Part shown: positions 8,656 through 55,700 of the stretch, piece by piece
Layout of the letters: each line of letters begins with the position of its first letter
How positions within the stretch are numbered: the stretch's first letter is position 1
Origin: Deltaproteobacteria bacterium
GTDB taxonomy: Bacteria > Myxococcota > JADLHZ01
Direction of reading: 5' to 3'
Assembly: GCA_020848545.1 (NCBI GenBank)
Contig: JADLHZ010000027.1
Coordinates: 62,001 to 126,000 of the forward strand
Length of the DNA: 64,000 bases
Translations under genes and position numbers: made by a program
The notes under the pieces: generated by a model
Seen by the model: only the letters and a program-made list of their open reading frames with translations
Database searches by the model: none
Told to the model about the DNA's origin: nothing

Positions 8656-9666
8656 ATGGCCCGTCTGATTTGGTTGTGTCTGCTGCTGACTTCCCCTGCC
8701 CTCGCTGAGCCGCTCGCCGGCGTCTTCGTGCAGAGCGACGAGCACATGCTGATCGAGCTCATCGCGACGCCGTCGGGACGCTACGCGCTCGCGCTGCAGA
8801 TGAAGGGCGATCCCGGAACTGAGCCGACGACGCTCACCGAGACCGGCGAGTACACCTACGACAAGAAGTCGCTGGCGCTCGTGAACGACAGCGGCGAGAA
8901 GATCACCTACGCGACGGAGAAGACCGACGCCGCGCTGATCCTGAAGCACAAGACCATCGGCACGCTGACGCTGACGGACGAGAAGCCCCTGAGCGCCCAG
9001 ATCGCCGCGCGCGCGCAGGCGATGGAAGCCAAAGCGAAGGCGGACGACGACGCCGCCAAAGATCGCATCAAGCTCGGCAAGGCCACGCCGATGCCGGACG
9101 GCGTCGACTTCAGCGACCTCGGCAAAGACCCGACGCCGAAGCAGGTGCTCGCCGGCGCCGAGGTCTTCACCGATCTGCACCTCTACGTGCACTCGCCGGA
9201 AGCGCACGTGCTGACGGTGCTCGACCTCGATCACAAACGCTCGGAAGCGCCGATGACGTACATGTACTTCTTTCCGAACGGGCGCTTCGTCGAGACGAAG
9301 GCGCCGGACATCATGGCGACGTCGCCGAAGCCTGCGCCGAAGCCGATCTGGGGTGCGTACACGGTGAGCGGCGACGGGCTCACGCTCTTACTCCAAGGGA
9401 AGAAGGCGAGCGCGCCGCTGCTCGACGGGCGGCGCACGATCCGGTGGGACGGCATGCGCCTGCAGATCGTCGGCGCGCAGCAGTCGGCGCCGGCGGCGAA
9501 GCCCGACGCGAAACCAGATGCTAAACCAGACGCGAAGCCCGACCCGAAGAAGCCCGAGCCACCGCCAGCGCCGTCCGGAAAGGCGCAGAAGACGAGCGCC
9601 GAAGACGAGATGGAGCAGATGCTCGTCGAGATGCGCGAGCAAACGAAAAAGAAGCTCGGGAAGTGA
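8656..9666 (+). CDS. Secreted protein of unknown function with AKPD repeats
   Basis: This 336-residue protein has a clear signal peptide (MARLIWLCLLLTSPALA). The mature part looks like small beta-rich modules with a helical, charged linker near residue 120. A low-complexity tail from about 280 holds four AKPD units followed by KKPEPPPAP, then an acidic/basic helix ending KKKLGK. Such tails often span periplasm or peptidoglycan. The GGAG at 8647-8650 gives a good start at 8656. It directly follows the lytic transglycosylase and may share its transcript. No family recognised. Confidence 0.7.
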   Translation: MARLIWLCLLLTSPALAEPLAGVFVQSDEHMLIELIATPSGRYALALQMKGDPGTEPTTLTETGEYTYDKKSLALVNDSGEKITYATEKTDAALILKHKTIGTLTLTDEKPLSAQIAARAQAMEAKAKADDDAAKDRIKLGKATPMPDGVDFSDLGKDPTPKQVLAGAEVFTDLHLYVHSPEAHVLTVLDLDHKRSEAPMTYMYFFPNGRFVETKAPDIMATSPKPAPKPIWGAYTVSGDGLTLLLQGKKASAPLLDGRRTIRWDGMRLQIVGAQQSAPAAKPDAKPDAKPDAKPDPKKPEPPPAPSGKAQKTSAEDEMEQMLVEMREQTKKKLGK

Positions 9667-9715
9667 TCGGGCGAGCGCTGACACATCTCTGACGCTGTGT
9701 TAGAGCGGACGGTCA

Positions 9716-11806
9716 ATGAAGATTGCGTTGACGTACAATCTCCGTCTCACCGAATCCGAAGAAGAAGCCGAGTTCGACACCGTGGAAACGGTCGATGCGA
9801 TCGCCAAAGCGCTCGCCGACGCCGGCCACACCGTCGAGCGCATCGAGGTGTCGGGCACCGCGTCGCACTTGCTCGCGCGGCTCGAAGCAAACGATCCGGA
9901 TCTCATCTTCAACACCGCCGAAGGCCGCCGCGGCCGCGCGCGTGAAGCGCTGTACCCGGCGCTCTTCGAAGATCTCGGCGTGCCGTTCACCGGCTCCGAC
10001 GCCTATGTGCTCACGCTCACGCTCGACAAGTGGCTCACGAAGAACGTGCTCTTGAGCCACGGCATCGACTGCCCGCGCGGGCGCGTCGTGACGCCGGTCG
10101 ATCTGCAGCGCGTGCTCGAGCAGGGCGTCGGCGTGCCGTTCCCGGTCATCGTCAAGCCGAACTTCGAGGGCTCGTCGAAGGGCATCGGCGACGATCCGGT
10201 GGCGCGCGATCACAAGACGCTGACCACGCTCCTGAAGGCCGCGCTCGCGCAGTTCCCGCAAGGCGTGCTCGTCGAAGAATTCATCGCCGGCACCGACGTC
10301 ACGGTCGGCTTCATCGAAGGCGTCGGCGACGACGGCATCTTGACGCCGGTCGAGTACGTCATCGACCCGAGCGTCAAGAACAAGCACAACATCTACGACT
10401 ACAAGCTGAAGAACATCGAGCACGACAAGGTCTCGGTGCGCTGCCCGCCGAGCCTCGCGCGCGACGTGCAAGCGCGGCTGAAGGCCCTGGCGAAGACGGT
10501 CTACAAGGCGCTCGCGCTGCGCGATATGGGCCGCATCGACTTTCGCATCGGCGAAGACGGCCGCATCTACTTCTTGGAGGTGAACGCCCTGCCCTCGCTC
10601 GAAAAAGGTGCCGGCATCTTCGCCGCGGCGGAGCTCGAAGGCGTGTCGTACGACGGCGTCATCGCCGCCATCGTCAAGGCGGCGGCGTTGCGCGCAGGCT
10701 TGGCGGCGCCGGAGGCCGCGAGCAGCCGTAAGAAAGCGCAGCCCGTGCGCGTCGGCTTCACCTACAACTTGAAGCGCGCCGACTCGAAGAGCGGCTCGGA
10801 CGACGAGGCCGAGTGGGATCCGCCGGAGACGATCAAAGCGATCACCGAGGCGATCAAGTCGTACGGTCACACCGTCGTGCCGCTGGAAGCGACGGCCGAC
10901 TTGCCCCGCGTCCTCGCTGAGGCCGACGTCGATCTCATCTTCAACATCGCCGAGGGCTTGATCGGCCGGAACCGTGAAGCGCAGGTGCCGGCGTTGTGCG
11001 AGCTCCTCGGCATTCCGTACACGGGATCCGACTCGGCGACGCTCGCGATCGCGCTCGACAAGGCGCTCGCGAAGAAGGTGCTGAAGCAACACGGCATCCT
11101 CACGCCGGAGTTTCAGCTCTTCGAGACCGGCAAAGAGAAGCTGAACCCCGCCTTGAAGTTCCCGGTGATCGTCAAGCCGAACACCGAAGGCTCCTCGAAG
11201 GGCATCGCCGGCACCAGCGTCGTCGACGACGAGGCGGGCATGCGCGCGCTGGTGAAGACGCTGCTGGAAAAATACCGCCAGCCTGCGCTCGTCGAAGAGT
11301 ACATCCCGGGCCGCGAGTTCACGATCGGCCTCTTGGGCGACCGCCGCCCGCGCGCGCTGCCGCCGATGGAGATCGCGTTCAAGGACGACAAGAACGAGCG
11401 GCCGGTCTACGACTTCCAAGTGAAGCAAGAGTGGGAGAAGCACGTCGAGTACGTGTGCCCGGCGAAGGTGACGCAGAGCGAGCACCGCGCGTTGGATCGC
11501 GCCGCCCTCGACACCTTCGAGGCGCTCGATTGCCGCGACGTCGCCCGCGTCGACTTGCGCATGAACAAGGAAGGCAAGGTCTACGTGCTCGAGGTGAACC
11601 CGCTGCCGGGCCTCACGCCGGACTACTCCGACCTCGTGCTCATTTCGAAGGCCGCCGGCATCGAGTACCGATCGCTCATCGGCGACATCCTCGCCGGCGG
11701 CTTGAAGCGCCTCCGCGAAAAACGCCGCGTCGAGAGCCAAGAGCGCGAAGCGCAGAAGATCGAGAACAAGCAGAACGGCCAGGCGCAGCAAACGACCATC
11801 TCATGA
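9716..11806 (+). CDS. Tandem D-Ala-D-Ala-ligase-like protein with two fused ATP-grasp modules
   Basis: The 696-residue protein contains two homologous halves, about 1-335 and 343-690. Each has an N-terminal Rossmann-like part (FNTAEG / FNIAEG, then GxPYTGSD-like), an ATP-grasp lysine segment (VIVKPNFEGSSKGI / VIVKPNTEGSSKGI), a VEEFI or VEEYI strand, and the Mg-binding end (YFLEVNALP / YVLEVNPLP). Family members join carboxylates to amines with ATP, usually making dipeptides such as D-Ala-D-Ala. Both halves keep the key motifs, so both may be active. The start follows a small gap; the stop overlaps the peptidase ATG (ATGA). The true substrate is unknown. Confidence 0.85.
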   Translation: MKIALTYNLRLTESEEEAEFDTVETVDAIAKALADAGHTVERIEVSGTASHLLARLEANDPDLIFNTAEGRRGRAREALYPALFEDLGVPFTGSDAYVLTLTLDKWLTKNVLLSHGIDCPRGRVVTPVDLQRVLEQGVGVPFPVIVKPNFEGSSKGIGDDPVARDHKTLTTLLKAALAQFPQGVLVEEFIAGTDVTVGFIEGVGDDGILTPVEYVIDPSVKNKHNIYDYKLKNIEHDKVSVRCPPSLARDVQARLKALAKTVYKALALRDMGRIDFRIGEDGRIYFLEVNALPSLEKGAGIFAAAELEGVSYDGVIAAIVKAAALRAGLAAPEAASSRKKAQPVRVGFTYNLKRADSKSGSDDEAEWDPPETIKAITEAIKSYGHTVVPLEATADLPRVLAEADVDLIFNIAEGLIGRNREAQVPALCELLGIPYTGSDSATLAIALDKALAKKVLKQHGILTPEFQLFETGKEKLNPALKFPVIVKPNTEGSSKGIAGTSVVDDEAGMRALVKTLLEKYRQPALVEEYIPGREFTIGLLGDRRPRALPPMEIAFKDDKNERPVYDFQVKQEWEKHVEYVCPAKVTQSEHRALDRAALDTFEALDCRDVARVDLRMNKEGKVYVLEVNPLPGLTPDYSDLVLISKAAGIEYRSLIGDILAGGLKRLREKRRVESQEREAQKIENKQNGQAQQTTIS

Positions 11807-26563: not shown

Positions 26564-27343
26564 CTACGGGACGATCTCGATCGTGCCTCTGATCGTCGCT
26601 TCCCGGTTCGACTGCTGCGGATCGATGTTCACCGGTGACTGCTCCTGCTCCGTCGGCGTCGTCGCGACCGGCTCGGTGACCGCAACCGTCGTATCCTCAC
26701 CCTGCGTCAACGCTTGCTCCGCGCTCGACAGCCGATCACCCGCGCCGCTCACGCTGAACGATCCGCCGGTCGAGAAGCCGTTGAGCAAATCGCCGAGCAG
26801 CGCCGGATCCAAAGTGCCGACATCGGACATACCGTCGCTGCCGACCGAGAGCTGCGTCATCGGCGGCAGGATCTTCTCCTTGCCATCCTTGTCCGTGACG
26901 ACGCCCTCGCCGCGCTCGACCGCGACGTCCGTCTTGGTGCCGTCGCTGCCGACGACGATCGACGTGCCGCGCACACCGGCGACCGCGTTCTGCGTCTCGA
27001 CCGTGAACGCAGACCCTTCGCCAAAGAACTTCTGAATCCGCGCCCACACCCGCCCAACCACCAACTTGACGCCGATCTTCGGCCGCTCCGCCGGCTCGAG
27101 CTTCGCCAGCACCAGCTCCGCGCTCGGCCCGAGCGAGACGACGCTGCGGTCGGCGAACAAGAGCTGCACTTGGCCCTGCGCGTCCGTCTTCAGGGTCTCG
27201 CCGTGATAGACGCGATCGCCTTTGTCGAGGCGCCGGCTCGCTTCGCCGGAGACCGCCTTCACCATCCCGGCGATCGACACCACACGCCCGAATTGTGCGG
27301 CATCATCGGCGCTCAACAGCATCACACTCATCATCAGAAGCAT
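26564..27343 (-). CDS. FecR-domain secreted protein, last gene of the beta-helix/TPR-barrel operon
   Basis: This 259-residue protein starts with a signal-like stretch (MLLMMSVMLLS). Residues about 15-140 form a FecR domain: GRVVSIAGMVKAVSG, GDRVYHGETLKTDAQGQVQLLFADRSV and VETQNAVAGVRGTSIVVG are typical. There is no transmembrane anti-sigma anchor, so it is probably periplasmic rather than a classical FecR sensor. The C-terminal 90 residues are Ser/Thr/Gln-rich and probably disordered. GGAG precedes the ATG by eight bases. It begins 15 bases after the TPR/barrel gene; such freestanding FecR-domain proteins often neighbour secretion or surface systems. Confidence 0.82.
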   Translation of the reverse strand: MLLMMSVMLLSADDAAQFGRVVSIAGMVKAVSGEASRRLDKGDRVYHGETLKTDAQGQVQLLFADRSVVSLGPSAELVLAKLEPAERPKIGVKLVVGRVWARIQKFFGEGSAFTVETQNAVAGVRGTSIVVGSDGTKTDVAVERGEGVVTDKDGKEKILPPMTQLSVGSDGMSDVGTLDPALLGDLLNGFSTGGSFSVSGAGDRLSSAEQALTQGEDTTVAVTEPVATTPTEQEQSPVNIDPQQSNREATIRGTIEIVP

Positions 27344-27358
27344 GCTGATCTCCTACCT

Positions 27359-28711
27359 TCAATAAGCCGCGCGCAGCGTGACGCCGGTCAAGTGCCGCAT
27401 GTAGTCGAACTGCACGACGGCCGGCGAAACGTTGCGCACGAAGCGATAATCGACGTCGATGAACAGCCACGGCGTGACCGTCACCGACGCGACGAAACCT
27501 GCGCTCACCCGCTGATCCACACGCATGGTCGAGCTCCGCTGATAGAAACGCCCCATGTAGGCAAGTGTGGCCCCGAAGCTGAAGCGCGAGACCGTGAAGC
27601 GCAGGAGCATGTCGGCTTCCGGCCCGAGCTCGCGCTGCTCTGCGCCGGCGGCGTTCTCGAGCTGAAAGCCGGCGCGCACATGGGCGACGACGTCGTCGCG
27701 CACGAAGTTCAAGCCGAGGCCCACGTTCGTGTGCAGGCCGTCGCGATCGGTAGGCCCCGGCTGGTTGAAGTCGCCGGTCGTGAAGTCGCGGTAGCCGATA
27801 CCCGCGTAGAGCCCCGGCTGCCAAACTTCGCCGAAGATGCGACGGTACTCGGCGACGAGCGCGAAGTCCTGCATGAAGTGCCGCGTGAAGCCCTGCAAGA
27901 ACACCTGGCTGATGAACGCCGCCGCGATCAGCCGATTGTCGCCGACACGGCTGTCGACCGAAAAGCGCGGCAACACCTGGGCGAAGTCGAAGAGCGCGAG
28001 ACGATCGCGGTGCATCAGGTGAATGCCGCCGCTCAAGTCGACACTGAGCGACAAGCGCGTCTCGCCAAAAGACGGCTGCCACGCGACTCCGCCCGAGAGC
28101 AGCAAGCGCAAGCCGCCTTCGTCGCTCGGCGTGGCGTCTTGGATCAGCGTCACGTTCGAGTCGTACTCGGTGGCGATCTTCGCGCGCAGCGCCCAGTTCT
28201 TGCGCGAGCGCTTGCCGATCGGCGGCTTGTCGAGCAACACCCCGAGCTGCTGCGCCTCGCTGTTCGTCGGGTCGAGGGCGAGCGAGCGCTGCACTGCGGC
28301 CTTGGCATCTTCCGTCGCGCGGGCGCCGTCTTTGGTGCGCAGCATCGCCAAGAGGTAGCCGCGTAAGAGGCTCTGCCCCGCGGTCTTTGGCTCTAAGGTC
28401 AAGAAGCGACTGATGTCGGTCGCGAGCGTCGGCAGCTTCCGCTCGAACGAGACGCGCGCGAGGTCGAAGGCGAAGTCGACGTTCGCCGGCACGAGCTCGC
28501 TGGCGCGGGAGAGCAGCCTGCGCGCCTCATCAACGCGGCCGTCGGTCTCGGCGAGCAAGCCTTCTGCGTGCGCGACTTCCGCTTCGTCGGCCTCGCTCCC
28601 TGGCGCTGCAGGTGGAGCGAACACTGGCGCGCTCGTGGCTGCCTGCGCTGACGCCGGCTGCGAGCTCGGGTCTTCGGCTGCGATCGCGATCATGCACAAA
28701 AGAATAGACAT
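27359..28711 (-). CDS. TPR-containing outer-membrane beta-barrel protein (Slam/PgaA-like architecture)
   Basis: The 450-residue protein has a short signal peptide (MSILLCMIAIAA), an Ala/Pro linker, TPR-like helices from about 45 to 160 (ARRLLSRASELVPANVDFAFDLA, with repeats), and a beta-barrel from about 170 to the end. The barrel shows repeated amphipathic aromatic strands and ends in Tyr. N-terminal TPRs plus a C-terminal barrel is the layout of Slam surface-lipoprotein exporters and of PgaA. It lies six bases after a large lipoprotein gene, which would be the obvious client. Barrel strand number and Slam membership need profile searches; the functional proposal is inference. Confidence 0.68.
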   Translation of the reverse strand: MSILLCMIAIAAEDPSSQPASAQAATSAPVFAPPAAPGSEADEAEVAHAEGLLAETDGRVDEARRLLSRASELVPANVDFAFDLARVSFERKLPTLATDISRFLTLEPKTAGQSLLRGYLLAMLRTKDGARATEDAKAAVQRSLALDPTNSEAQQLGVLLDKPPIGKRSRKNWALRAKIATEYDSNVTLIQDATPSDEGGLRLLLSGGVAWQPSFGETRLSLSVDLSGGIHLMHRDRLALFDFAQVLPRFSVDSRVGDNRLIAAAFISQVFLQGFTRHFMQDFALVAEYRRIFGEVWQPGLYAGIGYRDFTTGDFNQPGPTDRDGLHTNVGLGLNFVRDDVVAHVRAGFQLENAAGAEQRELGPEADMLLRFTVSRFSFGATLAYMGRFYQRSSTMRVDQRVSAGFVASVTVTPWLFIDVDYRFVRNVSPAVVQFDYMRHLTGVTLRAAY

Positions 28712-28717
28712 AGCCCC

Positions 28718-31700
28718 TCACTGCCCGGTCGTTGTGAAGCGAAAGAGACGCACGACGCCACCGCCGAGTGAAAACGTTCCGGCAGCGACGAGCGGGCCGC
28801 TGCCCTGATCGGCGCCGAAGTTCGTCGCCACGAGGCAGTCCTCGCCGGCCTCGCAGTAGCCGTTGTCGTTGCCGATGATGTCGTCGTCGATCTCGACCGC
28901 GCCGGCGGCGTAGGTGACGGCGCAGCCAAGGTCCGAGGACGGCAAAAGCGCGATGCTTGCCGTGCCCGGGTAATTCAAGGTGCAGAAAGTCTGATCGGCC
29001 GTCGGGCTGCGAAAGCGCACGAAGCTCAAGGCGTCGGCGGCGCTCAGCGGCGGCAGCGCGTCGTGCAACATGCCGCCGGCCTTCGTGCGGAAGTCGAACG
29101 CCGTGCATTCGCTGGTGCCGCCGCAACGGCCGCGCTGCGTGCTGCTCGGGAAGGCCGCCCCCGGCGCCGGATTCTGCATGTAGCCCCGGCGCGGGTTCTC
29201 GAAGGTCGACCACGGCGGTGCGAGCGCGTCATTCGGGCCGGAGGTATTGATGGCGACGGCTTGCTGATTGTTCGAGGTCGCGAACGCCGGGTTCTTGGTC
29301 TCGCTCGCGACCACGCCCACGAACGCTGGCCCGAGCGGCACGTCGCGCAACGTCGCCGAGCACTGGGTCGGCCCGCACGGCCAATCGGTTGATCCATCGG
29401 TGCCGCTCGTCGTGCAGTTGGCGGCGAGCCGCGACGTGCCCTGGTCGTCGAAGCACGCCGGCGTTCCGTCGTGTGCCGCCACGCGGCGCAGCTCCACCGG
29501 ACCGAGCACCATCGACCACGTGATGAGGTTCGTGTCGATCGCGAAGCCGGCGAAGGACTCGAGCGTGAAGGTGCCCGGGCTGCTGCCGGTGCCGAACGCG
29601 TCGAAACTGTTGAAGGCGAGTAAATTCGAGAACGCCACCGCGCTCGCATTGAGAACGTACGCCGTCACCCCGTTGTTCACGCTCGTCACGTTCGCCACGA
29701 AGAGGTCGCGGCCGTTTGGTGTGGCCTGCACGTGCATGCCGTACGCGTTGTTGTTGAAGGTCGTGACGTCGACGATCGTCGAGCGCTGCAGCTCGTCGAT
29801 CCACACGCCGTGCTGCCCGTTGTTGTAGCTCGTGACGCGACGGACGCGCGCGCGATCGTTGGCGCCGGCCCCGGAGCCTTCGAAGTAGAAGCCGGAGAGC
29901 CCGTTGTTTGCGCTCACGATGTCTTCGAGCACGACGCCGCCGGTTCCGGCCACGCGCACGCCGAAGCCGTTGCTGCTATCGACGCGCACGCGCCGCGCCG
30001 AGACGTCGACGTAGAGCGACGAGCCGTCGTTGTAGCCGATCGAGAGCCCGTCGCCGCCGGAGCCGCGGATCGCCACGTCCTCGACCGTCGAGGCCGACGC
30101 GTCGGGCAGCTCCACCGGGCCGCCCTTGATGTAGCTGTTGCGCAGCGTGAAGCGCCGCCCGACCACGCTCATGAAGGATCCCACCGGCGCACCCTGGGCG
30201 AGCATCGCCGGGGCTTCGATCCAGTCGAGGTCGCCGGCGACGTTGAACGCGGGCGTCGTCGCTTGCACGCCTGGCATCACCACGAGCGCGACGGCGGAGT
30301 TGGCAAAGTAGCTCGTGAGCTGCGTGAGGATCGTGCCGCCGCTGACCGTGATGGTGCCGGCCGCCGTGCCGGCCACGCTGCCCGGCGTGTCGCTGCGGAC
30401 CACCGGGTTATTCCACCACAGCGCGTCGGCGCTGACCCGGGCGCCGTCGCCGTCGTTCACGGCAAGCGCCATCGGCAAGAAGGCACACGTGGCGCCGTCC
30501 GTCGGGCAGCTCGCAAAATCGATGACGCTGAGCAGCCCGCGCTCTGGCATCAGCTCGTGGCTCACGACCTTGATGTGATCGCCGGACGGCTCGCACGACC
30601 AGCGTAGAACACCGCGCGAGTCCGCGGCGCTGACGCCGGCGCAGCTCGTGCGATCGTAGACGTGCGCCTCTTTGTGCACGCCGCCGTGCATGCAGTCGTC
30701 GGGCACTTGCGGAGCGTCGGCGCAGGCCGTGTCGGGCGAAGCGCGCTTCACCCAACCAAGCCAGTCCGGCTTGAGCGTGAAGCTCGCCCGCACGGCGCCG
30801 AGGCAGCGCACCTCGATCGACGCGAGCGCGGCGCCGCTCAGCACCGTGCACTGAAACGCATCGATCTCGCTCGATCCCGGCTGCGCCAGCGTGACGGCCA
30901 GCGGCTGCCCGGCGATGCGGCGCGTGGTGAGCGGAAAGTCGCCGTCGGCGCTGACGCCCACGGTCTCGGTGCCGACCGTGACCAGGAGCGGCGACGTCAA
31001 CGTCCCAGCGAGGCCGCGGACGCGCAGGTTCATCCCGAGATCGCAAGTGATCGACACCGTCGGCGGTTCTTGCACGTCGGCGACGCCGCTCGGCGAAGAG
31101 CTGAAGCTGCACGTCACGCCCGCCGGCGCCGACACCATCTCGACCGCGTAAGTGTTGCCGACTTCGACGCCGAGGCCGAACTCGGATCTGCCCTCGCCCG
31201 CCTTCAGCTCGTCATCGTCGTTCTTCAAGGTCAGCGTCTCGGTGCCGATGCCGGTCACGTTCACCGCGAGCGGCACGCAGCGCGTCGTCAGCTCAGACGG
31301 CACGTTCATGCGGCAACGATCGTTCTTCGCCAGCGCGTAGAGCTGCGCGTGCGTCACCTTCCCATGCTCGACGAGGATCTTTTGCTGCGGCGACGTGGCG
31401 TAAGGTTTCGTCGTCTCGTAGGTCGCCTGCACCGTGCTTTCACCGAGCGGAGCCACCTTTCGGAAGCGTCCGTTGTTGATGACGATGGCGGCGGCCGCCC
31501 AGTCGGAGGTCGCGGGATGCTCGAGGATCGCGTCGAGCTCGAGCGGCAGGTCCGTATGATCGAGGGTGAGCAGCTCGCCCTCGATGACGCCGACCGGGTG
31601 CGCCTGGAGCACGACGTCGACCTCGGCGCCGGCCTCGAGATCGAGCGTCTGCTCGGCGAAGTAGGCCGGGACCTCACGACCGTCGTCGTCGACCATCGCG

Positions 31701-31957
31701 TCGAGTGAGATCTTCCGCGCGGGACCCGGCGCGACGCTGAGCGTGAACGCATCGTCTTCATCGACGTCGGCGAGGATGGGATCGCCGAGATCCGGCGCCT
31801 CGACGCGCACTTGCAGGCGGCTGAGCTCGCGCTCCCCGAGCGCCTGCTTCAGCGCCGTCGCGTCGATGCGCACGCGGGCCTTCTGCCGCGATTCGCAGCC
31901 GAACCAAGCGGCCGACACGACCATCGCGCAAACGACCGGCACCCAACGCGAACCCAT
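28718..31957 (-). CDS. Large lipoprotein with parallel beta-helix repeats
   Basis: This 1079-residue protein has a signal and probable lipobox (SAAWFGC, Cys21). Residues about 30-380 are beta-sandwich-like modules. From about 580 to 830 there are right-handed beta-helix (PbH1-like) rungs with regular N-rich turns such as NNGLSGFYFEGSG, YNNGQHGVWID, FNNNAYGMHV and VNNGVTAYVL. The C-terminus has paired cysteines and a final segment (GNDNGYCEAGEDCLVATN) seen at the end of other large deltaproteobacterial lipoproteins. It is first in an operon with the TPR/barrel and FecR genes. Beta-helix proteins often bind or cut polysaccharide or act as adhesins; no catalytic site is evident. Confidence 0.75.
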   Translation of the reverse strand: MGSRWVPVVCAMVVSAAWFGCESRQKARVRIDATALKQALGERELSRLQVRVEAPDLGDPILADVDEDDAFTLSVAPGPARKISLDAMVDDDGREVPAYFAEQTLDLEAGAEVDVVLQAHPVGVIEGELLTLDHTDLPLELDAILEHPATSDWAAAAIVINNGRFRKVAPLGESTVQATYETTKPYATSPQQKILVEHGKVTHAQLYALAKNDRCRMNVPSELTTRCVPLAVNVTGIGTETLTLKNDDDELKAGEGRSEFGLGVEVGNTYAVEMVSAPAGVTCSFSSSPSGVADVQEPPTVSITCDLGMNLRVRGLAGTLTSPLLVTVGTETVGVSADGDFPLTTRRIAGQPLAVTLAQPGSSEIDAFQCTVLSGAALASIEVRCLGAVRASFTLKPDWLGWVKRASPDTACADAPQVPDDCMHGGVHKEAHVYDRTSCAGVSAADSRGVLRWSCEPSGDHIKVVSHELMPERGLLSVIDFASCPTDGATCAFLPMALAVNDGDGARVSADALWWNNPVVRSDTPGSVAGTAAGTITVSGGTILTQLTSYFANSAVALVVMPGVQATTPAFNVAGDLDWIEAPAMLAQGAPVGSFMSVVGRRFTLRNSYIKGGPVELPDASASTVEDVAIRGSGGDGLSIGYNDGSSLYVDVSARRVRVDSSNGFGVRVAGTGGVVLEDIVSANNGLSGFYFEGSGAGANDRARVRRVTSYNNGQHGVWIDELQRSTIVDVTTFNNNAYGMHVQATPNGRDLFVANVTSVNNGVTAYVLNASAVAFSNLLAFNSFDAFGTGSSPGTFTLESFAGFAIDTNLITWSMVLGPVELRRVAAHDGTPACFDDQGTSRLAANCTTSGTDGSTDWPCGPTQCSATLRDVPLGPAFVGVVASETKNPAFATSNNQQAVAINTSGPNDALAPPWSTFENPRRGYMQNPAPGAAFPSSTQRGRCGGTSECTAFDFRTKAGGMLHDALPPLSAADALSFVRFRSPTADQTFCTLNYPGTASIALLPSSDLGCAVTYAAGAVEIDDDIIGNDNGYCEAGEDCLVATNFGADQGSGPLVAAGTFSLGGGVVRLFRFTTTGQ

Positions 31958-33861: not shown

Positions 33862-34517
33862 TCACCAGGCGCCGTCGTTGCGCTTCATGAAGTCGTAAGG
33901 GTAGCCGAGCGGCGGCGCGCTCGCTTCGTCGAGGCGCGTGACGTGCTGCGGCGTGAGCTTCACTTCGGCTGCCTTGGCGTTGTCTTCGAGCTGAGCGACC
34001 GTGCGCGCGCCAAAGATGATGCTGGCGACCGTGTCCTTCGCCAGGAGCCACGCGAGCGCGGTCTGGGACATGCTCGCCCCTACTTCGCCCGACACCGCCG
34101 TCAACGCGTCCAAGATCGCCCAGTACCGATCGTTGTCCCAGCGGCGGCTCTTCCACACCTCGAGGCGCGCGCCTGCGGGCAGCGGCTGGTGTGCAGCCGG
34201 CTCGCGCCCTTGTCGTTCGGCCCCTTGCCCATGGCGAAGCGGCACTTCGTCGCGAGCACGACCTCGTGGCGGCGGCCGGTCTCTTTGAACCACTTGCCGA
34301 TGACGCGCTCGCTGAGCCCGTCTTGGCCGTAGACGTCGGCGGTGTCCCAGAAGTTGATGCCGAGCTCGAGCGCGCGGTTCATGACGGCAAAGCGCTGCTC
34401 TTCGCTCGAGCCAACTTTGTGCATCATCGACTTCTCGTCGGCTTCGCCGAAGGTCATGGTGCCAAGGCAGAGCTCAGAGACGCGGGCGCCGGACGCGCCG
34501 AGGTTTCGGTAGTTCAA
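33862..34517 (-). pseudogene. Aldo-keto reductase pseudogene with internal deletion and frame change
   Basis: The N-terminal part (from a TTG at 34517) reads LNYRNLGASGARVSELCLGT, DTADVYG (catalytic Asp and Tyr) and VVLATKC (catalytic Lys). Near 34188-34194 the reading passes out of frame straight into the C-terminal part PLPAGARLEVWKSRRWDNDRYW, LAWLLAKDTVASIIFGAR and the C-terminal LGYPYDFMKRNDGAW. Intact family members of about 330-350 residues have roughly 150 more residues here, including the active-site His. The joined product could not be functional. The start overlaps the murI stop, so the intact ancestor was in the same operon. Confidence 0.85.
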
Positions 34518-39772: not shown

Positions 39773-41716
39773 TTACTTCTTCTTCAACGGGATGAGCTCA
39801 CGCCGGCACTGCGAGAACGCCTTCAGCGCGGCCTCGACCTCGCCGCGGCGCGACGCCGGAACATCGCCTTCCTTCACGCGAATCGTGCGGCGAAAGCGGA
39901 TGCTGGCCGTGCTCTTCGTCGCCTCGCACTCGACGTCGACGACCGCGGTCTTCAGCGTCACCGATTTCGGCAGCGCCGTCGCCTCGTAGCTCTTCGCGAG
40001 ATCGATGTTCAGCACGTCCTCGTAGCGCGCGTTCACCCAGCCGTGGAGCGCGCCGGCGGCGAGCTTGCGATCGGGGCTGTCGTAGCTCGAGTACGCGAGC
40101 TCGAGCGGCAAGAGCATGCCGTCACCGTCCGCCACCAAGTGCTGCGCGACCTTGTAGCGCACCTTCTCCACGCATACGGCCTTCTTGCGATCGCACACGG
40201 CTGGCTTCGACTCTACGAGCTCGCCGCTCTTGACGCGCGCCTTCACCCACTTCTCGTGCGCCTCCTTCCAATCGCGCTCGCTCTTGTCGCGGTTGTCGAC
40301 CATGTCGTCGACGGCGTCGGCGCCTTCGTTCGTGATGTCGACGGCGCCCTCCACGTCCTGCCCGCTCACCTTGATCGTGTGCTCGCGCCGGGTGCCGCTC
40401 GGCATCGCCGGCGTGCCGACCAAGCGCTTGAACTCGAGCGTCACAAGGACGCCCTCGTTCACATCGCGGCGCCCGGCGATGATGACGCCTTCCTTGCCTG
40501 AGACCCATGTCGGCAGCTGCCCTGGCGTGCAGTGCTCGCACGAGGGATCGACGAAGATCGGCGCCGCGATGCCTTCTTGTGCGGCCACGTACAAGAGCAA
40601 GTGATCGAACTGGTTCGGCAGCGGGAACTCGCGCTCGAAGACCAAGCCGTCGTCGCGGCCGACGAGCACGTAGCGCACGTCGACGCCGTTGTCGTCGAGC
40701 ATGTGATACGCGAGCATCGCTTTTTCGAAGTTGTTCGCGAGCTTCTCGTCGACCGCTTCCTTCAGCAAGCGCGCCGACGACAAGTTGGAGACGAAGTTCT
40801 TCAGCTCGACCGACTCGTAGAGCTTGTCCATCGCCTTCGTCACGACGCACTTCTTGTCTTTTCCGCACGCCGACGCGTCGAGCAGCTTCGGCGCGCCCTT
40901 CGTCCACTTGCCGGTGTCGGTATAGAGCGAGCTCGCGACGTTCGAGAGCGTGCGCTCCCAGGTGTCGTTCAACAGGCGGTAGTTCGTGCCGTACTGCAGG
41001 CGCGCGACGCGAAAGGCCCACCACGGCTCGTGATCCTGCCAGGGCGTAGGGAACCAGCCCTTCTCGTGCGCCGGCAAGTTCTGCAGCGTGACCTTGAAGT
41101 GGACGACGCTGCCGTCGCGCGTTTGCAAGAAGCTCTCGGGCCGATTGAAGAGAGCGATCGCGCCGACGACGTTCTTGTTCAACGCGAGCTCGAGCTCGTA
41201 GCGATCGATCGGGATGTCGTCGGTGACGCGCTCGGTGTCCCAGGTGATGATGTGCGGCGAGCCCACGGAGTAGGCGTACTCGATGCGGCTGCCGACGCTG
41301 ACGCCCGGGAAGCGAAAGATCTTCTGCTTGTACTTCGTCTTCTCCTTCTTCTTGCCGACCTTGGCGTCGTCTTCGAGCACCTCCTGCGGCGTCACCTTCT
41401 GCTCGGTGCCGTCCGGCGCGATCGTGCGCGCGTGCAGGTACTCGAGCTCGTCCTTCTCACCGAGCCAGATCTTCACTTGCGCGTGATCGAAGCCGGCCTC
41501 GCTCAAGATGTGGATGATGTCGTGGCGGCGATACTGCGTGTAGCCCGTGAGCCCAGGATCGGCGGGCTCGCTGATCGAGAGCTGGCGCAAGAGCACGACC
41601 GCCTCGGCGTCCTTGTGGCGCCCGGCGTCGACCTTCGGCAGCGCGGCGATCGGCTGAAACTCGAACGATGCGCCGGCGCAAGAGACGAGCGAAAGACACA
41701 CGAGCACGCGGCGCAT
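39773..41716 (-). CDS. DUF3857/transglutaminase-like lipoprotein, catalytic Cys lost
   Basis: This 647-residue lipoprotein (LVSC lipobox, Cys13) has a DUF3857-type N-terminal half (YTQYRRHDIIHIL, VGSRIEYAYSV) and a transglutaminase-like core. By eye alignment with its upstream neighbour, the segment that should read YGDCKDKANLL is replaced by KLANNFEKAML, so the nucleophilic Cys is gone while the His (FDHLLLY) and Asp (FVDPS) positions remain. It is probably a non-enzymatic, substrate-binding paralog. Its ATG abuts the stop of the upstream gene, and its stop lies three bases before ligD. Confidence 0.82.
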   Translation of the reverse strand: MRRVLVCLSLVSCAGASFEFQPIAALPKVDAGRHKDAEAVVLLRQLSISEPADPGLTGYTQYRRHDIIHILSEAGFDHAQVKIWLGEKDELEYLHARTIAPDGTEQKVTPQEVLEDDAKVGKKKEKTKYKQKIFRFPGVSVGSRIEYAYSVGSPHIITWDTERVTDDIPIDRYELELALNKNVVGAIALFNRPESFLQTRDGSVVHFKVTLQNLPAHEKGWFPTPWQDHEPWWAFRVARLQYGTNYRLLNDTWERTLSNVASSLYTDTGKWTKGAPKLLDASACGKDKKCVVTKAMDKLYESVELKNFVSNLSSARLLKEAVDEKLANNFEKAMLAYHMLDDNGVDVRYVLVGRDDGLVFEREFPLPNQFDHLLLYVAAQEGIAAPIFVDPSCEHCTPGQLPTWVSGKEGVIIAGRRDVNEGVLVTLEFKRLVGTPAMPSGTRREHTIKVSGQDVEGAVDITNEGADAVDDMVDNRDKSERDWKEAHEKWVKARVKSGELVESKPAVCDRKKAVCVEKVRYKVAQHLVADGDGMLLPLELAYSSYDSPDRKLAAGALHGWVNARYEDVLNIDLAKSYEATALPKSVTLKTAVVDVECEATKSTASIRFRRTIRVKEGDVPASRRGEVEAALKAFSQCRRELIPLKKK

Positions 41717-43660
41717 TTACTTTCCCCCTCTTTGCTTCAACACGATCGCGCGCGCTTCCGCCTTCAGCGCCTCGTCGAAGAAGCGCTTAGCCTCGCCGTA
41801 GCGCTCCTTTGGCACGACCGATTCGTTCAGCGAGAACGAGCGCTCGATGGTCAACGCCGTCTTGTCGCGCTTGTAGCTGATCGCGTAGCGGCCGATCGTC
41901 GACGTCAAAGACACCGGCTCGGGCAGCGTCGAGACGTCGTACTTGTCACCGAGCGCGATGCGGATCTTGTGCTCGATGCGGCGGCGCTGGCGCAAGATCA
42001 GCGGCAGCTTGCGTTCGCCGGCGTCGCTCAACGCCGGCAGGCCGATCGCGAGCACGCCGTCCGGGCGCAGCGCGACGACGCCGCTCAACGACGTCTCCAA
42101 GTCCAACCGCGCGGTGAGCGACAACGGCTCCTCGGCGATCGGCGCCAGCGGGCTCGCGAGCTCGAGCTTCTTCACCTTCGCGCCTTGGAGCTGCAGCGCC
42201 TTGGCCACCTTGCCGCCGCGCTCGCCTTCGGCCGCGTCGATGAGGGCGCCGCGCAGGTTGTCGGCGAGCACACCGTCGCGCTCCAACTTCAACGAGCCGG
42301 TCAGGCCGGGGCCGCCGAAGGAGAGATCGATCTCGACGCGCTCGAAGTTTCGCTCGGGCGGCGACTCCTGCGTGCGCTCCATCGGTGCGCCCGATGTATT
42401 CAAGCGAATACACGGCGATCCCTGATCCATGCCGGGCAGCCGGCCGAAGGGCGCCGTGCGCGAAGTGGGATCGGTGAGGACGTAGTTGCCGTCGAGCTTC
42501 ACCGCCAAGATCGCGTGATTGTAATTGCCGCCGGTGAGCGTGAGGCGCTGGCGCGGAAAGCCGCTGTGCGCGTGGATGAGCACGAGATCGCTCTCGACCC
42601 CGCTCGCTGCGAGCAAGCGCTTCAACAGGTTCGCTTTGTCTTTGCAGTCGCCGTACTTCAAGCGCAGCACGTCTTCGGCGGCGTGGGGCTTGTATCCGCC
42701 GACGCCGATCTCGATCGCGCAGTAGCTCACGTTGTCGCGCACCCAGTTGTAGAGCTTGCGCGCCTTGTCACGCGGCGAGTCCTCGTCGGTGACGACCTTC
42801 TTCGCCTGCTCCAAGATGTGCGCCGGCGTCGTATCGCCGACCGGCGCGAACTGCTGCGTCACGTCGTAGAGCCAGCGCGAGAGCTCGACCTCGTCTTTGA
42901 CCGCTTCGACGAACGCGCCTTTGTCTTCCCAACGCTTCGGGTGCACGGCGATCGCCGGCGCCAGCTCCCACACGCTCGGCGCGGCGTCGTCGTCGTAGGG
43001 CATCGGCGCGACCTTCTTCGCCTCCCACACGAGCTCGCGCACATCGCCGTCGTCCCTCTGCTGCATCGGCGGCACCGGCGCGAGCTCGGACGGGTACTCC
43101 TTGACGAGCATCGTCCACGTCTTTGGGTGCCGGACGCGCAGCGCCACGTGCTCGACCGGGATGGTCGCCGCGAACGTTTGCTTGTGCGGCCACATGCGCA
43201 GCTCTTTGTGGCGCATGACCACGATCCACTCGATGACGCTGCCCGGCGTCGCCGGCACGTCGAGCATCATCACGCGCGAGTCGGCGTAAAGGACGAAGCT
43301 CTCGTGCGAGGGAAGATCCTCGGTGTCGTCGAGCGCGTAGGTCTTCACCTCGCCGCGCGGCGACACGGTGCGCGCGCTGAACGAGGTGATCTGATCGAAG
43401 GTGCGGCTGTAATAGACGCGAATGCGGCCGAAGTGATCTTTGCCCGGCTTCAACACGCGGATGCGCTCGTGGCTCGTCGCCTCGATGTACGGATCGCCCG
43501 CGGTGCTCGTCTTGTAGTCGAGGAGCACGTCGTCGAGCAGGCGCACGGCGTCCGAGTCTGGGTAGTCCCTGCTCGACGGCAAGGTCGCGAGATCGATGGA
43601 AGCGAAGCCACCGGCGCAACCGACAAAAAAGACGAGGACGAAGAGAGAACATGAGCGCAT
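41717..43660 (-). CDS. DUF3857/transglutaminase-domain lipoprotein with intact active site
   Basis: This lipoprotein, also 647 residues (lipobox FFVGC), has a DUF3857 half (HERIRVLKPGKDHFGRIRV, GSVIEWIVVMRH) and a transglutaminase-type core. The core has Cys in KYGDCKDKANLL, His in YNHAILAV and Asp in VLTDPTS, the papain-like triad. Such proteins are predicted to hydrolyse or modify peptides or proteins in the cell envelope; no substrate is established. The ATG at 43660 is chosen because it starts the signal peptide (MRSCSLFVLVFFVGC). It heads the unit leading to ligD and is divergent from ku. Confidence 0.85.
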   Translation of the reverse strand: MRSCSLFVLVFFVGCAGGFASIDLATLPSSRDYPDSDAVRLLDDVLLDYKTSTAGDPYIEATSHERIRVLKPGKDHFGRIRVYYSRTFDQITSFSARTVSPRGEVKTYALDDTEDLPSHESFVLYADSRVMMLDVPATPGSVIEWIVVMRHKELRMWPHKQTFAATIPVEHVALRVRHPKTWTMLVKEYPSELAPVPPMQQRDDGDVRELVWEAKKVAPMPYDDDAAPSVWELAPAIAVHPKRWEDKGAFVEAVKDEVELSRWLYDVTQQFAPVGDTTPAHILEQAKKVVTDEDSPRDKARKLYNWVRDNVSYCAIEIGVGGYKPHAAEDVLRLKYGDCKDKANLLKRLLAASGVESDLVLIHAHSGFPRQRLTLTGGNYNHAILAVKLDGNYVLTDPTSRTAPFGRLPGMDQGSPCIRLNTSGAPMERTQESPPERNFERVEIDLSFGGPGLTGSLKLERDGVLADNLRGALIDAAEGERGGKVAKALQLQGAKVKKLELASPLAPIAEEPLSLTARLDLETSLSGVVALRPDGVLAIGLPALSDAGERKLPLILRQRRRIEHKIRIALGDKYDVSTLPEPVSLTSTIGRYAISYKRDKTALTIERSFSLNESVVPKERYGEAKRFFDEALKAEARAIVLKQRGGK

Positions 43661-43772
43661 GGGCACGGGCTCATTATCGGTCGACGCGGCGAAGGTCCAC
43701 GCCAAGCGTTTGCGCATTTCTGTCATGATTCACCTGGACACGTGTTCAGCGCTGGCTATTTCGGCCGCGTTC

Positions 43773-47523: not shown

Positions 47524-49791
47524 TCACAACAGCGGAGCAAACAGATATTCGCTGCACTCGGCAAGGTTTTCGAAGCGGACCTTGCGCGCGCCCGCGTTGA
47601 CGTTGACGAAGAGCACTTCACCGATGGCCGCGCTCGAGCCCGGTTGATCGCCGCGGGTCACCTGCGAGACGAGCGACGCGCCGGACGTGCACTGCGGAGG
47701 CCCGGCCATGACGCTCGTCCACGCGCGCGGATCCGGCGTGCACGCGCGCCAGAGCAGCCCGTCGATGCCGCCCGGATCCTGCAGCGTGAGATCGAAGTGC
47801 GGCTGGTAAAGCGCCCCGCGCGTGTTCTCGAAAAACGGCACGCCGGTCGTGGACACCGGCAAGTCGAAGGTGGTCGCGTCGATCAAGACGACTTCGGCGG
47901 TGCCCGTGAGGAGGTCGGCGCTCGCGGCCTTGAGGCTCAAGGTCTCGGCGGCATCGAGCTCGAACACGCCGTAGAAGTCGACGTTCTTGACGTTCGCCGG
48001 AAGCGGGACGCCGGCGCCGCATCCGGTGCCCGAGGTGATCGTCAGCGCGGCCGGATGATCGACGTGGACGAACACGGCGGCGAGCAGCGCGTGCCCCTTT
48101 CCGTTGAACACGAGCGGCTGCTCGGCCGTGACGCCGTTGAACGCACGGCGCAAGATCACGTCGGTCGCGATGATGTTCGCTTGGTGCGCCGCGAGCATCG
48201 CTCTGAAGCGCGCGCTGAGGTCGGCGTAGACGGCGCGATCCGGGCTCACGACCGCCGCGTCCGGCAGCGACTGCTCCGCCGTCTGCACAGAGAGCGCGTC
48301 GATCACGCGCGCGCGCAGGCCGAGGATGCGGTTCGTGCCAGTGCCGAAGCCTTCGGGCAGCACGGTATCGAGCGCCGCCGCCGTGCCAGTGGCCGCGAGC
48401 GGCACGCGCTGGCCAGCGCCGTCGATGTATGAAAATTGATACTTCAGCGGCCCATCGCTGTCAGTCCAGCCGGAGCAGCTCAAGTGAAACATCGTATCGA
48501 ACGCGGCCCCGCTCGCCGGCGTCACGGTGCACGTGCCACCGGACGGCGGAGTATTCGCGGTGAAGCTCACCGTCTTCTCGTCGAAGCCGGCGCAGTTCGC
48601 CGCGCGCGCTTTCAGGCTGTAGGTCGTGCCGGCGACGAGCACCCCCGCCGGTACCATGAAGATCGAGCCGGAGCTGAGCACCTCGGTGGGATCGTTCACG
48701 TCGAGCAGGTTGTTCGCGACGCTCCAGGTGATCGTCGAGCTGCACGCGCTCGCATCGTCGACGTCGGCGTGAATCACGAGCGCTTGGCTCGGATCGACGC
48801 GCGCGCCGTCCGTGAGGCTGAGCGTGTTGGTCGGCGGCGTCGTCGCGTCGCAGCCGACGGTGATCTCGATGGACGTCTGCGTCTGGCGCTCACCGTCGCT
48901 CACGTTGAGCGTCAGCTCGTGCTTGCCCGCAGGGAGCGTGCCGCTGCCGATCGCGATCACCGGCTCTTGCGGCAAGGTCACGCCGCAGCTCACCGGTGTC
49001 GGCCCGACCGTCACGCAATCCCAGCTGTAGCTCAGCGGCAAGCGATCCGGGCTGCTCGACAAGCGCCCGTCGATCGCGATCGTCTGACACACGCCGGCGT
49101 TCCTGCTGCCGCCGGCGATGAGCGCGATCGGGGAGAGGCGCGTGATCTCGACGGCGAACGAGACGCTCCCCGTGAGCGGCGGGTTCGACGCCACGCTCGC
49201 TTGCAGCTCGAAGACGTAGTCCTGGCCGGGCGTGAGGTCGCCGGGCTCGAACGAGATGATGTTGCGCCGCTCGTAGGCGCTCGGGATCGTGACGGGCGGG
49301 CCGGCCGTCTGCACCCAGCGGTAAGCGACGGGCAACATCTCACAGCGCGGCAGCTGCGCGCGCCCGGTGACCGTCAGGCCCTGCGTGCCGTCGATCACAT
49401 ACTGCGAAGGGCCGTCGAGCGAGACGAGCAGCGCCTCGATCTCGGAGCGCTGCACCGTGGCTTCACCGGGACCGCTCACGGATCCGTTGATGGTGACGAC
49501 GACGCGAAATTGATAGGTGGCGCCGGCGCTCAGCAAGTTCGAAGGGATCAGCAGGCGCGGCTTGTTGGCGCGCCCGAGCACCTCGTCGAGCGCCGCCGAG
49601 CTCGGGGTCATCGTCCAGACGAAGGTTTGATCGCCGACCGTCGACGGCACGACGGCGTCGAGGACGAGATCGTCACACGGGCCAATCGTCTCAGGGGCGA
49701 GGATACGGGCGTCGAACTCGGGCCCGCCGGTGCAGGCGAACGAAGCGCCGAGGAAGATGGTCATGAGGAAGCGCAACATCGGTACTTTCAT
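47524..49791 (-). CDS. Large lipoprotein with REJ-like (polycystin-type) and beta-sandwich domains
   Basis: The 755-residue protein has a signal and probable lipid-anchored Cys (LGASFAC). PKD/Ig-like beta modules fill about 25-400. Around 405-455 lies a segment close to the REJ module of polycystins and sperm receptors: CAGFDEKTVSFTANTPPSGG, then TCTVTPASGAAFDTMFHLSC and SGWTDSDGPLKYQFSYIDG. The C-terminal 200 residues (GVPFFENTRGALYQPHFDLT and neighbours) have no recognised fold. It is probably surface or periplasmic. It is upstream of the MBL-fold and DUF72 genes and probably heads that operon. Confidence 0.72.
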   Translation of the reverse strand: MKVPMLRFLMTIFLGASFACTGGPEFDARILAPETIGPCDDLVLDAVVPSTVGDQTFVWTMTPSSAALDEVLGRANKPRLLIPSNLLSAGATYQFRVVVTINGSVSGPGEATVQRSEIEALLVSLDGPSQYVIDGTQGLTVTGRAQLPRCEMLPVAYRWVQTAGPPVTIPSAYERRNIISFEPGDLTPGQDYVFELQASVASNPPLTGSVSFAVEITRLSPIALIAGGSRNAGVCQTIAIDGRLSSSPDRLPLSYSWDCVTVGPTPVSCGVTLPQEPVIAIGSGTLPAGKHELTLNVSDGERQTQTSIEITVGCDATTPPTNTLSLTDGARVDPSQALVIHADVDDASACSSTITWSVANNLLDVNDPTEVLSSGSIFMVPAGVLVAGTTYSLKARAANCAGFDEKTVSFTANTPPSGGTCTVTPASGAAFDTMFHLSCSGWTDSDGPLKYQFSYIDGAGQRVPLAATGTAAALDTVLPEGFGTGTNRILGLRARVIDALSVQTAEQSLPDAAVVSPDRAVYADLSARFRAMLAAHQANIIATDVILRRAFNGVTAEQPLVFNGKGHALLAAVFVHVDHPAALTITSGTGCGAGVPLPANVKNVDFYGVFELDAAETLSLKAASADLLTGTAEVVLIDATTFDLPVSTTGVPFFENTRGALYQPHFDLTLQDPGGIDGLLWRACTPDPRAWTSVMAGPPQCTSGASLVSQVTRGDQPGSSAAIGEVLFVNVNAGARKVRFENLAECSEYLFAPLL

Positions 49792-52771: not shown

Positions 52772-55700
52772 CTACGGCTCGGTCGGGAACTTGTACTCGA
52801 AGAGCACGTCGTTCATGAACGCGAAGCCCGTATCGCGCGGCGAGCTCGGCTGGCGATAGTGAAAGACGATCCCGAACTTGCCGGTCGCCGGGCTGTAGGA
52901 TCCGATCGGTCCAAAGTGCGTGGCGCCGGAGAGTGTGGCGCCGGTCTCCGGCGCGCGGTTCGTGTATCCCCCGAACCAGTTGTCCGGGTGCCAGCAGCGG
53001 GTGCGGCAGCGCGCCATGCCATGGCCGTCGTTGCCGAGGCCGACGTACGAGAACACACCGTTCGTCAGCGCGAGCATGCCTAGATTCGGGGAGAAGCTCG
53101 CCAGCGACTCCGGCGACCAGAACCCGTGGTTCCAAGCGCGCGACGAGCCAGGGTTGCCGGGTGCGGCGGCGCAATCGTCGCCCGGGCCGAGCGTGCACAT
53201 CGCCATATGACCGAAGCCGCTGGTGACGAGCAACGCCGAGCCGGTGACGGTGATCGTGTACGATAGGCGCTTGGTCGACGGCGCGTCCACCACGGACGGG
53301 AACACTGGTGCCGACGTGGACACGCCGCCGCCACTGCCAGGCCAGTCGCCGACGTTGGTGCACTGCGTGGGTCCGCTCAAATTGCACCGCCACGCGTACG
53401 TGTACATGATGTTGGACGCGCCGTGCAGCTGCCAGATCCAATAGAGATCCGTGCCACTGATCGCGAGCGCGCCACCCATGTAATCGGCCGCGAACGCCGG
53501 GGGACCCGCAAAAGCGCCGCAGGTCGTCCCGACGTTCGTGCACACCGACCGCATGAGCATCATCTCGTTCGGCGCACCGGAAAACTCGTCGTCGTTCTGA
53601 GTGTACGAAATGTAGACGGAATCGTTCAGAGCGCCCTCGTTGATGACCATCGACAAGTAGTTCGCGTTTTGGCTCCCCGGGAGCGGGTACGATCCCACCA
53701 GTGTGTCGTGCGGCGTCGACGTATCCACGGTGCAGTCGGCGCCGACGCTGCGCCAGTCGTGACGCACGTCGCTCGTGCCGCCGTTCCTCACGACATAAGC
53801 GAAGTGAACTCGGTTGTTGATGATCTTCTGCGTCGCGGTCCCATTCAAATCGGTGAAGGCGCCCGCGAGCGTGGTCACCTCCACCGCGGTCGGCGATCCG
53901 TTGCCGATCTTCGGCTTTGTGGCGACCGCGATCTTCGTGCCGCCCGTCGTCACCTTCGCGTAGATCGCGATGTGACATTCGGGCGTCTCGGCGTAGTGGA
54001 CAGCCGATGCGTCGACCACGACGTCACCGCCGTTGAAGCGCCCGCCGGTCGCGGCGTGAAAGCGCGGCTCGGCGAGCCCGAGATCTTGGCCGCGATAGCT
54101 GGCGACGATGCCGTAGCGCTCCGGACCCGGCAGCGACAGCTCGGCGGCCGAGGCGTCCGGCGCCAGCGATTGCTCGAGGGTCGGCGATCCCCAGCCAGTC
54201 GCACCCGTCGGCCCCGTCGTCGCGAAGCCGATGTCGGCGCGGTAGCCGTCGACCGCAGCGAGCGAACGCGGCGTCCAGCTCGCGCGCAGGTTGTCGCCCG
54301 CGAAGTTTGGCAGCAGCGCGCGATTCAGCGGAGCGGGTGTGTCCGGCTCGAGGATGTACGCGCGCGTCGCGTCGCGGCCGACGAAGAGGTGGACGTTTCC
54401 TTGGACGATCCCGAGATCGACCTGACCGCGAATGTCGCCCGCGCGCAGCACGCGCACCGTCGTCCATTTCGAGGTGTCGAGGCAGTTGTTCGTTACCGTC
54501 TCCAAGCAACGCTGCAGGAACACCTCGCCCGTCGCGTAGTCGGTGACGGCGGAGTACAACATGTTGTCCCACGCTTCGAGCTGCAGGCGCGGCGCCTCCA
54601 CCTTGCCGAGGAAGAGGATCGGCTGGCCCATCCCCTTCAAGAGCTCGGGCCCCGTGAAGTCGGAGACGCTCGTGCAATTCGTGCCGGTTGTGAGGTTGCA
54701 GCGCCAAAGCAGCAGACCCGTCTTGTCCGGCCCGTTCGATTTACCGAGCGCTGTGACGTAGACGTAGTTGCCCACTTCGAGAATGCGCGTCGAAAAGACG
54801 AGGCCTTGGTTCGTCGTCAGCCGCAGCTTGTTCCAGGAGCCAGCGTTGTTGCAGTCGCTCGTCGCCGCGTTGCACGAGGCGATCGCGACCGCGCAGTCGG
54901 AGCCGGCGTCGGTGCAGTCGCGCACGCCGTTGCCGTTCGTGTCGACGTCGCCGCCAACGCCGGGCACGCCGAGGTCGTGGATCGCGGCCCACGAGAGCCA
55001 AAAGCGCTGCGAGCCGCCGTCAGCCGACACCATCGACGATTCTTGCGCCAGCCGATAGGTGAGATTCAGCGAGGTATCGATCAGCTGAATCGCGTTCGAG
55101 GTCGCCCCTTCCGAGCGCACCCAGACCCACGGATCGGTCGGGATCTTCGTGTCGTCGAAGCTCGCCTCGCCGAAGCCCGCCAGGAGAACACCGCGCCCGT
55201 TGGCGGCCATCGCCAGTGAGGTGTCGATCGCGAACGAAGGCGTGTTGATTGTGGCGATCTCTGAGGGCCACGGGCCCTCGGCGACGGCGTCGGGCTTGCC
55301 GCGAAGCACGCGGAGCGCCACCTTCGCGGGCGCACTCTCGAAGAGGACGCCGGACCACACTTCGTCGCCGACCGAGGTCATCCCCACGTCCTCGATGCCG
55401 CCGCCGCTCGCAAACGTCACTTGGTCGAAGCCGGCATCGCGGCAGCGATCACGCCGCACGTCACAGGTGTTGAGGATGCCCTGCGTCGGCCCGCCGGCAG
55501 AAGACACCATCAGCAACCCGCGGTAGGCATGCAAGCGGCCCTTGAGCTTGCCGATGCCGTTGGCGTTCTCCATGATCGCGGTCGTCAGGCCCACCTGAGA
55601 CTCGAAGGTCGACGACCAATCGCTGGTGTTCCCAGCGGCGTCGACCGCGCGCACGCGGAAGTAATAGAGGTCGAGCGACGGAAGGCCGGTGACCCAGCCC

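Follow-up and report, generated by a model that had tools for sequence, protein, structure and literature searches.

An operon of three genes, located in the window (the whole stretch of 64,000 nucleotides analysed here, from an assembly of 7.99 Mb, G000), may encode an outer-membrane translocon that works in the manner of Slam and the T11SS, belongs to a lineage of its own and uses a FecR-domain protein as a dedicated periplasmic subunit, a reading for which we see even chances. It is favoured because the central protein is predicted to join TPR helices to 14 strands, because its family is paired with a FecR gene in 40 loci and the trees of the two are correlated, and because lipoproteins, present in 19 loci, combine a shared N-terminal domain with variable passengers. 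The FecR protein adds a fold similar to that of PupR and a terminal strand that is much rarer in other FecR proteins, and among Slam homologues some 52% are encoded next to a lipoprotein (PMC5449769). We count against this reading the absence of a SlipAM match over the cut-off, the several pairs, notably most of those in Bdellovibrionota, that stand without a lipoprotein neighbour, the lipoproteins of family f4, which were not joined to the N-terminal domain of the window, and a FecR protein (G037) devoid of the terminal strand.

The three open reading frames were found on the minus strand as the initial annotation had placed them, co-directional and separated by gaps of 6 and 15 bases. They specify lipoprotein P0001 (28718..31957, 1079 residues), the proposed cargo; barrel protein P0002 (27359..28711, 450 residues), the proposed translocon; and FecR-domain protein P0003 (26564..27343, 259 residues), the proposed periplasmic subunit. 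Beyond the Proteobacteria in which Slam has been studied, little is established about the route of lipoproteins to the cell surface, and predatory and social bacteria, Myxococcota and Bdellovibrionota for example, rely on their surface proteins. A conserved unit made of barrel, FecR protein and lipoprotein is a concrete, portable gene set, and through it exported FecR proteins, a common class lacking a known function, would acquire a role.

The barrel protein and its likeness to Slam

The AlphaFold2 model of P0002, built on an alignment of 23 sequences (mean pLDDT 86.9, pTM 0.67), begins with seven helices (residues 40-161, positions 28229..28594, minus strand), which Pfam recognizes as TPR (PF14559, E 2.4e-5). 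There follow 14 strands (residues 173-449, 27365..28195, same strand), so that the C-terminal barrel predicted at the outset for the last 280 residues is confidently modelled. When this model was compared with the PDB using Foldseek, OmpG, a 14-stranded porin, came out best, and the TPR-barrel exporters BcsC and PelB were also in the top ten.

DUF560/Slam proteins are described with this same layout, 14 strands preceded at the N-terminus by a TPR domain some 140 residues long, and PgaA with 16 strands (PMC8406197). An architecture common to Slam and PgaA had been proposed for P0002; we find that its layout fits Slam better, with DUF560/SlipAM membership remaining undetectable. P0002 had no match to SlipAM (PF04575) in the Pfam scan, nor did anything exceed the cut-off of that profile in 14 genomes carrying the barrel family, where two of the three sub-threshold matches fell on members of this very family. 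With the TPR_Slam profile P0002 reaches 13.4 bits for a cut-off of 35.2, while a relative (L109) passes with 42 bits. The PgaA profile TIGR03939 gives 9.8 bits, to be compared with a cut-off of 366.65. Another family, PF10082 (BBP2_2, putative beta-barrel porin 2), is matched over its cut-off by a relative from G005, across the last barrel strands, but not by P0002 itself in the Pfam scan. The P0002 system most likely works like Slam, without being demonstrably a Slam.

Further features may separate the operon from the T11SS. The cargo proteins of cluster 1 of that system end in an 8-stranded barrel (PMC12282271), a domain that the Pfam scan, at the level of profiles, did not find in P0001; here the proposed cargo is linked by its N-terminal domain. 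For Slam, Skp has been identified as chaperone (PMC9090332), and FecR is unmentioned in the papers on Slam and T11SS that we consulted (PMC12282271, PMC8406197, PMC5449769). The earlier remark was that a FecR-domain protein without a membrane anchor is not a part of known Slam systems. A literature search for a barrel associated with FecR returned nothing relevant among open-licence papers, so that a description elsewhere is possible.

The FecR protein as constant partner of the barrel

A first scan of contigs with P0002 as single query returned no relatives. Searching 97, then 195 genomes with the barrel recovered full-length relatives in seven families of the host phylum, nearly all of them immediately beside a FecR gene. 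A scan of named genomes with a FecR alignment gave 80 loci; in 24 a full barrel adjoins the FecR gene, co-directionally in 24/24, and these belong to Myxococcota, Deltaproteobacteria, Bdellovibrionales, Desulfarculus, Dadabacteria and Nitrospirae. The relatives in named genomes come mostly from uncultured Myxococcota and Deltaproteobacteria. We count 40 distinct pairs, adjacent and co-directional, spread over Myxococcota/Deltaproteobacteria, Bdellovibrionota, Desulfarculus, Dadabacteria and Nitrospirota, which argues that the gene arrangement is not due to chance. The joint conservation on which the initial annotation depended is found for barrel and FecR in these loci, and a lipoprotein is present, by inspection, in 19 loci.

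The trees of barrels and FecR proteins are correlated over the 40 pairs (Spearman rho 0.67; best of 2000 permutations, 0.21), a correlation which is partly due to common descent. In genomes with several loci (G037, G033, G005 and G020 among them) each FecR protein groups with the group of its own barrel, showing that the two genes travel together. In family f4 (L062, L063, L109, L111, L112) the barrel operon occupies a conserved site, after genes resembling those of phosphopantetheine adenylyltransferase and an aminotransferase.

P0003 has a clear FecR domain (PF04773, 52.9 bits for a cut-off of 24, E 5e-14). Its N-terminus is short and signal-peptide-like and no other anchor is present, as had been noticed at the start. 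Its AlphaFold2 model comprises a folded core (residues 17-168, 26840..27295, minus strand), two helices and a disordered tail (residues 220-259, 26567..26686, minus strand; pLDDT mostly below 50) that closes on a conserved amphipathic strand, ...ATIRGTIEIVP. The core matches the fold of the signalling domain of PupR and that of the surface-anchoring domain of MpAFP, the latter being also matched by the sequence profile (E 1.2e-6). In the PupR-PupB couple a FecR-family domain docks on the periplasmic domain of the receptor barrel. Unlike PupR, P0003 consists only of its signal-peptide-like start, core and tail, with no membrane-spanning segment followed by a cytoplasmic anti-sigma part.

The terminal strand (VRVRVEVRQ for example) is found in 32 of 37 barrel-linked FecR proteins, against 9 of 67 other FecR proteins, 4 of these 9 being second FecR genes within barrel operons. 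Shuffled tails attain the same strand score in 45% and 11%, so that composition accounts for part of the difference, not for all of it. The strand is absent from the FecR protein of G037 (L060/L132); in that of a Bdellovibrionales locus (L171) it is retained at the end of a disordered linker of about 250 residues. Many FecR proteins encoded without a barrel (loci L131-L210) end in another conserved motif, W-x-x-WNxxRD, and form a separate FecR class.

Lipoproteins and their passengers

P0001 was announced as a beta-helix lipoprotein of 1079 residues, and so it is: it has a lipobox, AWFG|C, slightly unusual for the W at -3, and a right-handed beta-helix (residues 624-776, 29630..30088, minus strand; PF13229 Beta_helix, E 1.2e-8). 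Between them, beside the lipid anchor, lies an N-terminal domain (residues 22-205, 31343..31894, minus strand). Residues 8-182 match a lipoprotein of 212 residues belonging to a barrel-FecR locus of G033 (phmmer, E 4e-13), and a profile of the domain (A4) also finds a lipoprotein of 689 residues at G000:C123 (E 0.001). Residues 255-1071 match two lipoproteins that stand alone at other places of the same genome. From these two sets of matches we derive a common element beside the lipid anchor and a passenger that varies: P0001 is a mosaic, the shared lipoprotein domain being fused to a beta-helix. The beta-helix was also considered as a conserved client and rejected, for both paralogues are lipoproteins remote from barrel-FecR pairs and without the shared domain. 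The large lipoprotein, taken at the outset for the natural client, stays the proposed cargo; its beta-helix is a fusion specific to this locus, an interchangeable passenger, and the most constant partner of the barrel is FecR.

By inspection, lipoproteins are present at 18 of the 40 pairs, that of the window included, and at one further locus (G013:C379). They usually have 200-260 residues and are sometimes fusions of 689-2050 residues. The succession barrel, FecR, lipoprotein, with lipoproteins of 212-259 residues, is met in G033, G038, G044, G013:C2, G030, G020 and G005. Elsewhere it is extended, to barrel-FecR-lipoprotein-FecR-lipoprotein in G019 and G003, to barrel-FecR-lipoprotein-lipoprotein-FecR in G034, and to this latter order with one more lipoprotein at its end in G041. 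Three loci (L136, L139, L147) share with the window a lipoprotein gene placed upstream of that of the barrel; their lipoproteins have 1429-1454 residues, with TIG domains in the two that were scanned, and at G013:C379 a lipoprotein of 2050 residues stands between FecR and barrel. Most barrel-FecR loci of Bdellovibrionota, and several others, have no lipoprotein neighbour.

When a strict rule for the lipobox is applied, several of the lipoproteins recognized by inspection are missed; 13 of 46 co-directional neighbours of the pairs pass it, versus 6 of 72 genes next to other FecR genes (p 0.009), and so do 93 of 988 background genes. The small lipoproteins of f4 and f6 were not joined by hhalign to the N-terminal domain of the window type, and for those of f4 the link to it is limited to their position and to a short start motif that is similar.

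The window genome has a second barrel-FecR pair (G000:C73; L065:5881-7209 and 9456-10067), followed by a trypsin-like lipoprotein; the same contig also carries a divergently transcribed lipoprotein of 203 residues of the shared family. Far from barrel-FecR pairs, G000:C44 encodes a lipoprotein of about 1865 residues (L211:3022-8619) with a start motif, CQSGGDRSKVRVDLTSLQRGI, as in the N-terminal domain and a weak match to its profile (E 0.04). It is possibly an orphan client.

Working model and competing explanations

A channel-FecR pair often accompanied by a lipoprotein, in several phyla, looks like an undescribed branch of putative surface-protein export. In such a branch the lipoprotein would be lipidated and delivered to the outer membrane, where the domain beside its lipid anchor would serve as the address by which it is recognized. 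The barrel would then move it to the cell surface together with its passenger, here the beta-helix. FecR might bind the barrel at its TPR mouth, in the way that PupR docks on PupB, while its flexible tail and terminal strand might capture, seal or hold the cargo through beta-strand pairing. In a more ambitious version, which we put forward tentatively, the TPR-14-strand barrel and its periplasmic FecR would form a separate multi-phylum export system that differs from the T11SS and has an adaptor and a targeting rule of its own, the tethered C-terminal strand capturing or anchoring the lipoprotein via its N-terminal domain.

The main rival of the translocon reading, an unlikely one in our opinion that nevertheless deserves attention, is that FecR itself is threaded outwards in the manner of LapA, its folded domain being retained in the periplasm while the tail passes through the barrel and the strand grips a surface lipoprotein or the matrix. 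The match to the anchoring domain of MpAFP, in profile as in fold, argues for it, and so do the linkers of up to about 250 residues in the Bdellovibrionota, where lipoproteins are mostly missing. A protein of 1356 residues encoded directly after a barrel gene in Nitrospirae DP16D_bin.35 (L210:7938-12008) fuses a FecR domain, by way of a linker rich in P, G and M, to a long passenger, and suggests that FecR can be a retention module. P0003, however, is a separate small protein and not an RTX adhesin; it scores 27.3 bits with the LapA retention family NF033682, under the curated cut-off of 50, and no type I secretion genes were recognized nearby. Furthermore, this explanation leaves the lipoproteins unaccounted for.

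Less probable still would be a static outer-membrane complex exporting nothing, in which the barrel serves as a pore, with FecR and a lipoprotein turned towards the periplasm as its structural partners or as partners on the side of the peptidoglycan. The resemblance to OmpG and the PF10082 match of one relative speak for such a porin, while large passengers such as beta-helix and TIG domains are typical of surface proteins (Slam, too, displays large passengers), and TPR domains are typically found in export barrels. Two other explanations fit poorly. Export of a polysaccharide, as by PgaA, BcsC or PelB, has in its favour the combination of TPR and barrel and the fold matches to the latter two, but the barrel has 14 strands instead of 16 and no polysaccharide synthase was recognized next to the pair in the loci mapped, which makes it quite improbable. 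Cell-surface signalling with FecR as anti-sigma regulator is the most improbable of all: the fold of PupR and an ECF-like sigma gene downstream in one locus (L060) would suit it, and yet a sigma gene was seen in that locus only, while P0003 has neither an anti-sigma nor a membrane-spanning part.

The window contains other genes that merit mention. Two overlapping frames at 33862-34517 together encode one aldo/keto reductase-like protein, which has thus been split by a frameshift or a sequencing error. The segments 39773-43717 and 47524-49779 encode DUF3857 proteins in tandem, of which one contains a transglutaminase core, as well as a probable lipoprotein in which a REJ domain is recognized (E 4e-46), and at 52772-62356 a protein of 3194 residues displays carboxypeptidase-regulatory-like, bacterial Ig-like and lamin-tail domains.
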